Below, one piece after another: positions 34,471-37,632 of a stretch of 39,756 nt of DNA. Numbering within the stretch: the first letter of the stretch is position 1; each line of letters starts with the position of its first letter. This DNA comes from a virus. Both the position numbers and the translations under genes were made by a program. The notes beneath the pieces were generated by a model, which was not told the origin of the DNA, did no database searches, and was given only the letters and a program-made list of their open reading frames with translations. The stretch spans positions 1 to 39,756 of IMG/VR virus record IMGVR_UViG_3300036828_000346; one strand, 5' to 3'.

Positions 34471-36336
34471 CTACCGTGCTGCGTCCTGCATCCGCTGCAT
34501 GGCGACCCGACGGAACAACCGCGCCAGACCGTGCGGGTCGTCGACCGCCTCTGCGAACTCGCATCGGTGGGCGTTGACCGGCTTGCCGATCTGACTCGGC
34601 TGCGTGGGGAGGAACGCCAACACTGTGACGATCCCCGCTGCCCGCATGGCTTCGATAAGACGCTCGTTGCTCGTCACACCCGACGGGTGCGACGAGTAGG
34701 AGGCCCAATCCCCGTCGGTGAGCACGACCATCATGCGATGTGCGCGCTTGCTGCTTGCCAGGAGGCGATACGCCTCGTGGAGAGCACTTTCGGGGTTTGT
34801 GCCACCTGTTGCGTCGGGTTCGAACATGCGATCCCGTTCGGGGCGCACACCCGGTGTCGATAACACCTTGTGCGGACCCGATGACCATGTGACGACTGAG
34901 CACTCACCGTCCAGGTCATCCACAGTCATGCGGATGGCCCAAATGGCTTCGCCCAGTGCGTGCGTCACGCGCTCCATTGACCCGGACACGTCGACGAGGA
35001 GCACAACCTCCAAGTCCGTTGTGTCAAGGCGACCAGGCTCATAACGGTCGAACCATGCGTCGGGGTCCGACTTGGGATTGAGCACACGCGAGACGTTCAA
35101 ACGTCCCGAGGTCGTGCGTCGATCCCAACCGGGCTCGTTCGCATTTTTGAGGTCGACGAGTGCATCTGCGACCTCACGGTGCAGGCGGCGGGCGTTCTCA
35201 CTGACGGGCTTGTGTTCCCCGTCAGGTCGAGCACCCTCAATACCTGCTCCGGTTGACCGACCGTTCTTCAACACGTCGAGGATGTCTTGCAGGTCCTTGG
35301 CGGTTGCGGGGTCGTCACCGATTTGCTTCTCGGCGGCTTTCTGCAACTGCTTCCGGAGGTCATCCAACGTGGGCGGCTTCGGCGTGCCCGGTTGTGTACC
35401 GGCACCGTCACCACTCTTGTCGGACGACTTGTCGTCTTTGGACTCTTGGCCCTCGGACGATCCCTCGCCATCCTCCTTGTCATCGTCGCTGCCGTCTCCA
35501 CCCGGTTGCCCCTCGCCCTCACCCGGCGTGGGAGTCTCGTCGCCCGCCGGTGGAATACCGGGGCCGGGAGTGCCCGTTTCGGGTTGCCCTGCTTCGTCTG
35601 ACATCACCGTGCAAACGGTGGGCAGATTCGGCGGGGCATCGGCGAAGATGTTGTATAACTCTTCGAGGATTGCGAACGCCTCGTCCGATTCGGTTTCACC
35701 CGGATCGAGCAAGCGTTGGTAATCACTGACGAGCTCCAACACCCTGTCGGCGACGTCCTTGTTGCGGCGCGTCAAGAAGATGGCGCGTGCTTTGAAACGT
35801 TCCGACATCGGCAACCAGGTCCGACCACACATCAGCAACCACGCAGATTCACTGTCGGCCACCAGGTGGTGGCCGAGGGCTGCGGACAAGTAACCAGTCC
35901 ACGGTGCGAACCGTGCCAGAATCAAACGTTCCTGGCGTTGGTCCTCAACGATGTTGCAGAGTTGACTGAGCCCTCGCATGAAGGTTGTCTCCGCTGCCTC
36001 GATTCGCACCATAAGGGACGAGCCGGATCGCGGCGAGAACTTGACATGCCCAAGCTCGTGAGCAACTGTCCCCATCCACACTGCCACCGCGAACGGACTG
36101 TCCGGGTTGGGCATGTGCTTCATGGAGAAGCTCACATGGTCACCGTCCAACGTCGTCCATGCGGGCGCTGGCCCGTTTTGAACGATGCTGACGGTATCCA
36201 CGTCGAAGCTGCTCAGTAGTTCGAGCACCATACGGATCTCGCGACCCAGGCGTTCGATCTTGAGCAGATCGGCGGGACTGTAATCATCGAGCGGCAACTC
36301 AATCTGAGTTGTGCCCGACTTTTGGGAGTCAAACAT
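34471..36336 (-). CDS. VWA protein with zinc-metallopeptidase-like N-domain
   Basis: About 620 residues from ATG 36336 (AGAAAGGGGG upstream). The N-terminal domain has TVAHELGHVKF with HELGH at 93-97 and NIVEDQRQE at 128-136, the HExxH...ED layout of zincin-type metallopeptidases of the CobT/DUF2201-like group. An acidic, low-complexity linker (about 245-320) leads to a VWA domain: MIDAS DVSGS (448-452), GGTNP (510-514) and LTDGD (538-542). In bacteria such proteins pair with MoxR ATPases, as here with the gene at 36694. Role in the phage unknown: target remodelling, host shut-off or exclusion are options. Confidence 0.85.
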   Translation of the reverse strand: MFDSQKSGTTQIELPLDDYSPADLLKIERLGREIRMVLELLSSFDVDTVSIVQNGPAPAWTTLDGDHVSFSMKHMPNPDSPFAVAVWMGTVAHELGHVKFSPRSGSSLMVRIEAAETTFMRGLSQLCNIVEDQRQERLILARFAPWTGYLSAALGHHLVADSESAWLLMCGRTWLPMSERFKARAIFLTRRNKDVADRVLELVSDYQRLLDPGETESDEAFAILEELYNIFADAPPNLPTVCTVMSDEAGQPETGTPGPGIPPAGDETPTPGEGEGQPGGDGSDDDKEDGEGSSEGQESKDDKSSDKSGDGAGTQPGTPKPPTLDDLRKQLQKAAEKQIGDDPATAKDLQDILDVLKNGRSTGAGIEGARPDGEHKPVSENARRLHREVADALVDLKNANEPGWDRRTTSGRLNVSRVLNPKSDPDAWFDRYEPGRLDTTDLEVVLLVDVSGSMERVTHALGEAIWAIRMTVDDLDGECSVVTWSSGPHKVLSTPGVRPERDRMFEPDATGGTNPESALHEAYRLLASSKRAHRMMVVLTDGDWASYSSHPSGVTSNERLIEAMRAAGIVTVLAFLPTQPSQIGKPVNAHRCEFAEAVDDPHGLARLFRRVAMQRMQDAAR

Positions 36337-36436
36337 TTTGACTGCCCCCTTTCTGTTCCGGTGATGCTTGACGAGCAAACATCGTGCGTCCACCCTGACA
36401 TTTGAATGTCAGGGTGAACGCCCGCTGCCGACTGTG
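36337..36436 (-). promoter_or_regulatory. Leader cassette E with palindrome copy 17
   Basis: The core TGACATTTGAATGTCA (36396-36411) lies in a perfect 26-bp palindrome (36391-36416), then GCGT/ACGC arms. The asymmetric centre reads CA on the minus strand. The second hairpin (36363-36383) is GATGTTTG/CAAGCATC on the minus strand, a different sequence from A-D but still paired over 8 bp. Serves the VWA gene. Confidence 0.83.
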
Positions 36437-36697
36437 TCAGGCTGCTTTGGTCCGTCGTTTCTGTTGGGTTGCCGTCCATGCGGGCGGCCATCCCTCGACG
36501 GTTACTACTGGTTGCCACCGAGGCGCGTATCCGAGGATTCGCTTGGCGGCGACCATCGCCTGCTCGACGTTGGTCACGTCGAGCCGGATGCGACGGTGCC
36601 CGACTGCCGATCCGACAATCAGTAACCATCGCTTGTCGTCACCCTGCCCGTACTGATTGCGGGGTGACAACAACGTGAGAACGCCCGCCGCCGTCAC
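36437..36697 (-). CDS. Small hypothetical between MoxR and VWA genes
   Basis: 86 residues from GTG 36697, overlapping the MoxR stop (GTGA). LLTLLSPRNQ...RWLLIVGSAVGHRRIRLDVTNVEQAMVAAKRILGYAPRWQPVVTVEGWPPAW: an alpha/beta pattern; the basic end is QQKRRTKAA. No family recognised. It is translationally coupled to MoxR, so may be a third member of that complex. Confidence 0.68.
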   Translation of the reverse strand: MTAAGVLTLLSPRNQYGQGDDKRWLLIVGSAVGHRRIRLDVTNVEQAMVAAKRILGYAPRWQPVVTVEGWPPAWTATQQKRRTKAA

Positions 36698-37632
36698 GAT
36701 GACAACTCCGTGAAGATGTTGTCCGATTCGGCTTCGAGCACTCTGCTCACGATCCCCCGCTCATCGGAGGTGAAGTGATTGACAAAGAGACCAACTGCGG
36801 CCTCCATGCCCCACATGGACGCGTGCTCCTCGAACTCTTGGAGCATGTTGGTCGAGCACGGCGTTGCGATCTCCGCGTGTGTGCGAATGTTTCGCGACAG
36901 GTTGCGGAGTTTCTCCGAGACGATCAACTCGGCCTCGACGGCCGGGTCGTAGTCCCAGTCCAACGGAACTGCGAACCGATTGGACATGGCCTGCCCTAGA
37001 CGGACAGTGCCCTCGTACTCTCGGCTCGGGTTCTGAGTTGCGGCCAGAAGCACTGGCTGCACCTCACCCATGCACTCGATCACACCATCGTCACTGATGG
37101 TGTGCTCGTGACCACCGTGGCCCGCACGAATGGTCTCACCGGCTTCGGTGAGGTCCAATGTGCGTCCCACGTCGAGCATCCCGTGATACGCGGCGGTAAT
37201 CCGTGCGTTCGCCATGTTGATCTCGTCGTAAACGACGACACCTCCATAACGCCACACGAGACTGAGCAGACCATCTGACCACTCGTCGACGGCCAAGCCT
37301 TCGACGTGTGCGATTCGGGTCCGCCCGAACACCATTGCTGGGTCCATCGCCCCGTTGCACTGCACCCGGTAGAACGGCAGACGATAAAACGCTGCGAACG
37401 CCCGGAAGACCGTCGTCTTGGCCGAACCAGTTGGCCCGGTCAGGATGACGTTCTTGCGCACCTCCATCGCTGCTGCGAAGAAGTCGAAGTCGAGCTCTCC
37501 GTAGACGTTGCGGTGGACGTACCCCTCGGCAATCCGAGGGTCAGGTATGAGTGCTGCAACACGATCCCGGTCTTTCTCCGGCACCGTGTCTAGGTTGAAA
37601 AACGGCACATATGTTGCTGTGCTGGTTCCCAT
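36694..37632 (-). CDS. MoxR/CobS-type AAA+ ATPase
   Basis: 312 residues from ATG 37632 (AGAGAGGAACAG upstream). Walker A GPTGSAKT (66-73), Walker B GVVVYDEIN (131-139), sensor-1 region VLLAATQNPSREYEG, and an Arg-finger candidate in AMSNRFAVPLDWDYDP. MoxR ATPases act as hexameric unfolding or insertion machines together with VWA partners; the partner lies two genes downstream. In T4-like cyanophages CobS-type genes occur singly; a full MoxR-VWA/zincin pair in a 39-kb phage is unusual. Confidence 0.88.
   Translation of the reverse strand: MGTSTATYVPFFNLDTVPEKDRDRVAALIPDPRIAEGYVHRNVYGELDFDFFAAAMEVRKNVILTGPTGSAKTTVFRAFAAFYRLPFYRVQCNGAMDPAMVFGRTRIAHVEGLAVDEWSDGLLSLVWRYGGVVVYDEINMANARITAAYHGMLDVGRTLDLTEAGETIRAGHGGHEHTISDDGVIECMGEVQPVLLAATQNPSREYEGTVRLGQAMSNRFAVPLDWDYDPAVEAELIVSEKLRNLSRNIRTHAEIATPCSTNMLQEFEEHASMWGMEAAVGLFVNHFTSDERGIVSRVLEAESDNIFTELSS

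Follow-up and report, generated by a model that had tools for sequence, protein, structure and literature searches.

The window analysed here, a stretch of 39,756 nucleotides of viral DNA, encodes two neighbouring proteins, a MoxR-type AAA+ ATPase and a VWA protein whose N-terminal domain is zincin-like. The two proteins probably form a phage remodelling machine that acts on a dedicated client, whichever protein this client may be. Pairs of this kind are already known and occur in many tailed phages, where they often bear the annotation of vitamin B12 (CobS/CobT) genes. What is new is their constant neighbour: in all 14 genomes of a group of small phages, including the window, a DNA-binding-like third gene with a private C-terminal tail is located beside the MoxR gene.

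The source is a small soil-type phage. The contig of 39756 bases bears a direct terminal repeat of 171 bp (1-171 = 39586-39756) and therefore probably represents the whole genome, with a length of about 39.6 kb. The matches of its terminase, at around 30% identity, are mostly terminases of actinobacterial phages. Searched at the nucleotide level, the right half of the window has no match among phage records. The MoxR gene, an ORF of 86 residues and the VWA gene are all encoded on the minus strand and cover 3162 of the 39756 bases (8.0%), the share given in the preliminary description of this DNA. In the direction of transcription the 246-residue gene (38527-37787) is followed by MoxR (37632-36694), the 86-residue ORF (36697-36437), which overlaps the MoxR stop by 4 nt, and the VWA gene (36336-34471). 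The features of the locus are:

34471-36336, minus strand: zincin-VWA co-chaperone, 621 aa, ATG start (motifs, alignment of 72 homologues, AlphaFold2 model, Foldseek, full-length phage VWA matches)
36396-36411: 16-bp palindrome TGACATTTGAATGTCA, between the 86-aa gene and the VWA start
36437-36697, minus strand: 86-aa protein, lineage-specific accessory (homologue only in locus L092)
36694-37632, minus strand: MoxR-type AAA+ ATPase, 312 aa (AAA_5, 3e-14; phrog_249, 3e-27)
37699-37714: 16-bp palindrome TGACATTCGAATGTCA, upstream of MoxR
37787-38527, minus strand: conserved third gene, 246 aa, pI 10.4, proposed client (14/14 small-phage genomes, 0 elsewhere; AlphaFold2 model)
38611-38626: 16-bp palindrome TGACACTTGAATGTCA, upstream of the third gene

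The 16-bp palindrome is present in 21 copies, compared with 0 expected.

The MoxR protein, assigned to AAA_5 and PHROG 249, retains all ATPase motifs (Walker A GPTGSAKT at residue 66, Walker B VVVYDE at 132, sensor-1 TQNP near 198 and NRF at 218), and the adjacent VWA gene encodes a full MIDAS (DxSxS-T-D), as is characteristic of a MoxR AAA+/VWA pair. The VWA protein consists of the zincin-like N-terminal domain (residues ~10-235), an acidic linker (~240-320) and the C-terminal VWA domain. As the preliminary description had stated for a protein of some 620 residues, both sites are intact: HELGH is found at 93-97 and ED at 131-132 (ED..E 131-136), and the MIDAS is formed by D449-S451-S453, T513 and D541. 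Protein searches of phage records revealed 'AAA-ATPase / porphyrin biosynthesis' neighbours in Gordonia and Brevibacterium phages and haloviruses for the MoxR protein, and 'CobT-like' VWA proteins in Gordonia and Brevibacterium phages for its partner.

HExxH, ED..E and MIDAS are invariant in an alignment of seven phage VWA proteins. While a single VWA sequence found nothing in the viral contigs, this seven-sequence alignment, in which the HE motif was part of the query, found 80 loci. Among 72 aligned phage homologues, which reach down to about 17-20% identity, H93, E94, H97, E131, D132, D449, S451, S453, T513 and D541 are invariant. An independent scan used the MoxR alignment alone and made no use of the motif; it identified 29 loci, in 28 of which a VWA gene lies downstream of MoxR. 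All 28 neighbours comprise HExxH and ED at a spacing of 32-48 residues, and the MIDAS is present in each of the 23 complete ones. At every phage locus with a MoxR match the two genes are adjacent and in one order, the sole exception being L107, where the contig ends. Because the residues are invariant in the 72 homologues as well as in 28 of 28 neighbours located only through MoxR, the HExxH/ED motifs are, as judged from the alignments, conserved and neither a product of chance nor of decay. The genes are intact in the relatives rather than present only as decayed fragments. The conserved HExxH together with a conserved acidic candidate for the third ligand on the downstream helix is what a zincin would display at the level of the sequence, in line with the earlier proposal that MoxR and VWA proteins form a remodelling pair whose VWA partner has a zincin of catalytic appearance. 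The N-terminal domain has no match in Pfam. Prophage and cellular relatives were sought with two pattern sets in 84,980 species genomes and none was found, with patterns that miss plasmid-borne relatives having other motif contexts.

An AlphaFold2 model of the VWA protein, built from 72 rows, has a pLDDT of 85 and a pTM of 0.82. In this confident model three short strands are followed by two successive long helices, of which the first (81-100) is predicted to hold HExxH and the second (123-142) ED; the position of the HELGH helix, which had been named as a check on the zincin reading, is compatible with it. The VWA half is closest (Foldseek/VIA) to MIDAS domains of AAA+ partners, namely Rea1/MDN1 (Z 17.8) and the NorD VWA domain (Z 17.4). 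In a viral structure library the best matches are phage VWA proteins aligned from end to end, several of them named CobT, and ORF892 of Acidianus two-tailed virus is also listed. No zincin is among the matches listed for the whole model, these lists being filled by the VWA domain.

Sequence comparisons assign the phage adaptor to the CobT/CbbO superfamily. The VWA halves of phage proteins and CobT are clearly homologous by profile comparison (hhalign E 2.6e-9), while the direct comparison of the N-terminal halves is collinear but not significant (E 0.047) and alone does not suffice to connect them. The connection is made by intermediates. Nine CbbO-type plasmid proteins comprise an HxxxH + EDARVE frame, with both histidines in 8/9 and the catalytic Glu replaced in 9/9; their profile matches the phage N-terminal domain with E 5.4e-5 (score 36, where 30 column shuffles reached no more than 14.7) and CobT with E 3.6e-4. 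In addition, HExxH is present in a protein from a Microvirga plasmid, which matches the phage profile at E 1.3e-7 and falls just short of the cut-off for Pfam CobT (E 2.6e-5). Four cellular CobT proteins lack HExxH. These comparisons suggest that cellular CobT and CbbO-type proteins carry dead zincins as their N-terminal domains. NorD and CbbO N-terminal domains were judged unrelated in a study from 2023 (PMC9976466), and the motif is absent from the NorD-like L123, so the suggestion is limited to CobT and CbbO-type proteins. True NorD was considered as a relative of the N-terminal domain and is unsupported; the plasmid genes with the motif encode longer CbbO-type proteins, one of which is annotated as NorD.

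Viral pairs of this kind have elsewhere been named CobST, and the peptidase label was called a mistake (PMC8651126; PHROG 249, 459, 17276). The pairs of Gordonia and Brevibacterium phages and haloviruses are directly homologous to that of the window and have HExxH, ED and MIDAS in common with it; P0001 of the window is 33-38% identical with its Gordonia/Brevibacterium counterparts and 28-29% with those of haloviruses, P0002 about 29-33% (tblastn). They differ in their larger genomes (83-105 kb) and in having no third gene of the window type, and the Gordonia phage MoxR carries a long acidic C-terminal extension which the window MoxR does not have. Each of the two views in the literature is partly favoured by the sequences: the adaptor is homologous to CobT/CbbO, yet a protease-like site is kept in all phage copies, since the catalytic Glu of HExxH is lost in the CobT and CbbO-type proteins seen and present in every phage copy.

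If the pair were a true CobST, it would be auxiliary metabolic, inserting cobalt together with a host CobN and supplying more cobalamin for nucleotide synthesis, as proposed for haloviruses (PMC8651126). The matching VWA halves and the N-terminal domains linked through the CbbO-type and Microvirga proteins fit this, and gene order and domain order (N-terminal domain, acidic linker, VWA) are common to cellular CobS/CobT and the window. However, the four cellular CobT proteins lack the HExxH of all phage copies, and none of the window proteins has a CobS/CobT match in Pfam or NCBIfam over the curated cut-off. The ATPases also group apart: in the MoxR tree the window falls, amid other phage ATPases, inside a small-phage clade (100/100), separate from the CobS rows, which form a clade of their own (100/100), and from the CbbQ/NorQ clades, although the deep forks are weak. 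CobN is encoded in 0/30 records tested and is lacking in the window phage, and a B12-dependent ribonucleotide reductase (RNR) exceeds the cut-off in two haloviruses only and nowhere in the small-phage group. Owing to the retained HExxH, the missing CobN and the restriction of the B12-dependent RNR to two haloviruses, cobalamin synthesis is unlikely to be the role of the pair, and the full CobST scheme we regard as highly improbable.

It is also conceivable that the HExxH site holds a structural or delivered metal without any cleavage, in a machine that otherwise works as proposed here. In the CbbO-type relatives the HxxxH/ED frame persists although the catalytic Glu is gone, so it must serve purposes other than catalysis, and NorQD inserts iron (PMC13036017). 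Against this stands Glu94, which is invariant in all phage copies and would not be needed for structural metal binding alone; we assign the metal-only site a low probability.

The group of small phages comprises the window, the eleven loci L008-L018, L090 and L092. Their VWA proteins are 46-51% identical where full length, and the contigs of the 13 relatives measure 9-39 kb, mostly 30-39 kb. The small-phage setting, named in the preliminary description, is notable but has precedents in these relatives and in the 45-kb halovirus Hardycor1 (PMC7911831), a small tailed virus with an archaeal host whose AAA-VWA pair is likened by description. The order third gene, MoxR, VWA is found in all 14 genomes, with the third gene directly upstream of MoxR, and the third gene is absent at all other loci examined. 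That gene is the 246-residue ORF at 37787-38527, not the 86-residue ORF, which had previously been counted as part of a coupled trio. The MoxR-VWA part of that trio holds for many phages, where the two are adjacent, whereas the 86-residue gene stands between them only in the window and L092 (42% identity, E 7e-12). As it is found in 2/14 small-phage genomes, it was rejected as an essential partner. Its protein has no match in family and phage databases.

The third-gene protein is basic (pI 10.4) and helical in its AlphaFold2 model, and no match was found in PDB, Pfam or PHROGs. It consists of an HTH-like helical N-terminal half, a second helical segment, a Lys/Ala-rich tether and the C-terminal tail GNLRGL. 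A conserved stretch, TLRxYRDTAxxWP...VSFSAHRE, looks to us like a helix-turn-helix, although no family match bears this out; the protein is described as DNA-binding-like. The tail follows the consensus G[DN][LM]R[GD]L, with V at the third place in L092 and E as the last residue in L014. Among 4119 ORFs of these loci the pattern occurs in 16, every one of them a copy of the third gene. The [DN] position of the tail is N in the window and D in most relatives, and a contact of the MIDAS with an Asp of the tail is therefore not guaranteed.

By analogy with NorQD and CbbQO, the remodelling machine would act in three steps. The ATPase would assemble into a ring to which the VWA adaptor docks; a dedicated client would be gripped by the MIDAS, whose invariance is observed, and by other surfaces of the adaptor; and ATP hydrolysis would twist or pull the client to the tethered zincin, where it would be cleaved at a limited site, as the invariance of HExxH/ED and the model would allow. 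In NorQD, which acts on nitric oxide reductase, NorD is described as a twisting finger in the pore (PMC13036017). Rubiscos encoded beside cbbQO have a C-terminal motif in common that their activation requires, and CbbO with a mutated MIDAS does not work (PMC5437159). The CbbQ/CbbO system consists of MoxR and VWA proteins as in the window, with a homologous CbbO-type N-terminal domain in which the HxxxH + EDARVE positions are kept; it is distinguished by the replaced catalytic Glu, which the window copy retains.

The client is most likely encoded by the phage. Since MoxR-VWA machines such as NorQD and CbbQO often act on clients encoded nearby, the protein of 37787-38527 with its G[DN][LM]R[GD]L tail would be the best candidate; we propose it tentatively, as the chance that it is the client seems somewhat less than even. 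It might be taken off DNA or cleaved at a set stage of infection. The third gene is confined to the small-phage group, and phages elsewhere must consequently have other clients. RNR was also considered as a client, as several phages of ~100 kb encode RNR-like genes at a distance of ~4-5 kb from the pair. These genes are located on the other strand, however, and the small phages yielded none. A more far-reaching idea, which we consider doubtful, is that the three genes constitute a regulatory module, in which the machine would extract and cleave a tail-marked, DNA-bound phage protein and thereby switch or clear the phage genome. ImmA/ImmR is a switch in which a metalloprotease cleaves a repressor, and the proposed module would be an AAA+-powered analogue of it.

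The pair might instead be a virion-assembly chaperone and maturation protease that assists the folding of a structural protein and trims it during the late stage of infection. Such a role with proteolysis was proposed for group 2.2 jumbo phages (PMC7824862), in which MoxR is likewise encoded beside a VWA protein that begins with a metallopeptidase domain; here too the likeness is one of description, and the window group differs by its genome of ~39.6 kb and by the private DNA-binding-like gene that always precedes the pair. Acidianus two-tailed virus also encodes a MoxR-VWA pair (p618/p892), which is described as lacking a peptidase domain (PMC7824862) and is reported to be necessary for the tail; the structural match of ORF892 to the window model and the broad conservation of the pair among tailed phages point in the same direction. 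On the other hand, in the window the pair is encoded on the strand opposite to the structural module, within a separate stretch of small genes. Its constant neighbour is DNA-binding-like rather than structural, and the tail of this neighbour is absent from every structural protein of the window. Virion assembly appears rather unlikely.

According to the preliminary description the zincin would attack a host or competing-phage target, which would make the pair an effector of host takeover or inter-phage conflict. The catalytic-looking site is intact, and MoxR-VWA modules are known from conflict systems (PMC7159879). However, no specific defence or conflict family could be assigned, PADLOC giving only a generic Walker-A match of 42 residues to IetA. 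Rather than being patchy or diversified, the pair is constant in many lineages of very different phages, and in the small-phage group its fixed neighbour is a phage gene. This suggestion is thus not borne out and is considered quite improbable.

In phage genomes, cobS/cobT are often listed among the auxiliary metabolic genes for vitamin B12. As the phage adaptor keeps a protease-like site that is lost in the cellular relatives seen, the B12 reading of the family is doubtful, and a single catalytic Glu position helps to separate the protease, metal-site and cobaltochelatase readings. A phage of this small size, with a candidate for the dedicated client, offers a compact system for learning what viral MoxR-VWA machines do. 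If the three-gene module is true, the wide 'phage CobST' family would mostly consist of client-specific protease-chaperones and not of vitamin B12 genes.

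The CbbO-type VWA proteins, which resemble Rubisco activase adaptors (loci L122, L124 and L129-L135), contain HxxxH and EDARVE, lack the catalytic Glu and are apparent pseudo-zincins. MoxR-VWA pairs are also encoded on Halomicrobium and Microvirga plasmids, and there the VWA protein, like that of the phage, carries HExxH and ED. These pairs are neighboured by kinase/HEAT and helicase/exonuclease genes.

L125 3405-6236 and L127 2131-5653: plasmid MoxR-VWA pairs, Halomicrobium and Microvirga

Several other features of the window were observed. The stretch 1866-3613 encodes a ParB-like protein and, beside it, a fusion of a P-loop ATPase with a GNAT acetyltransferase (PHROG 11143); both are kept in several relatives. 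A CTGCA-rich repeat block without a called gene (4124-4331) is flanked by the genes at 3644-4018 and at 4712, the latter of which precedes the terminase. Successive small ORFs of the tail region (19498-22500) contain collagen-like Gly-Pro-X repeats.

The 16-bp palindrome TGACATTCGAATGTCA is present in 21 copies, where 0 are expected (window 1204-39384). Most copies are located at gene junctions throughout the genome, and nearly all genes of the right-hand minus-strand operon are preceded by one. This placement resembles that of phage repressor stoperators. The surrounding 70 bp or so (GCGCCCACCCA...TGGGTAGGCGC) form a near-identical repeat 5' of several small minus-strand genes.

Window 32494-34478 and 38569-38650, upstream of minus-strand genes: repeat of about 70 bp around the palindrome

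In public viral contigs exact TGACATTCGAATGTCA was found in only six stretches, with a single copy in each. The small-phage relatives L009, L013, L016 and L012 have a repeated palindrome of their own, TGATAGACGTCTATCA (5-9 copies) or near variants, which differs from that of the window and therefore suggests that regulator and site form matched pairs diverging from phage to phage.
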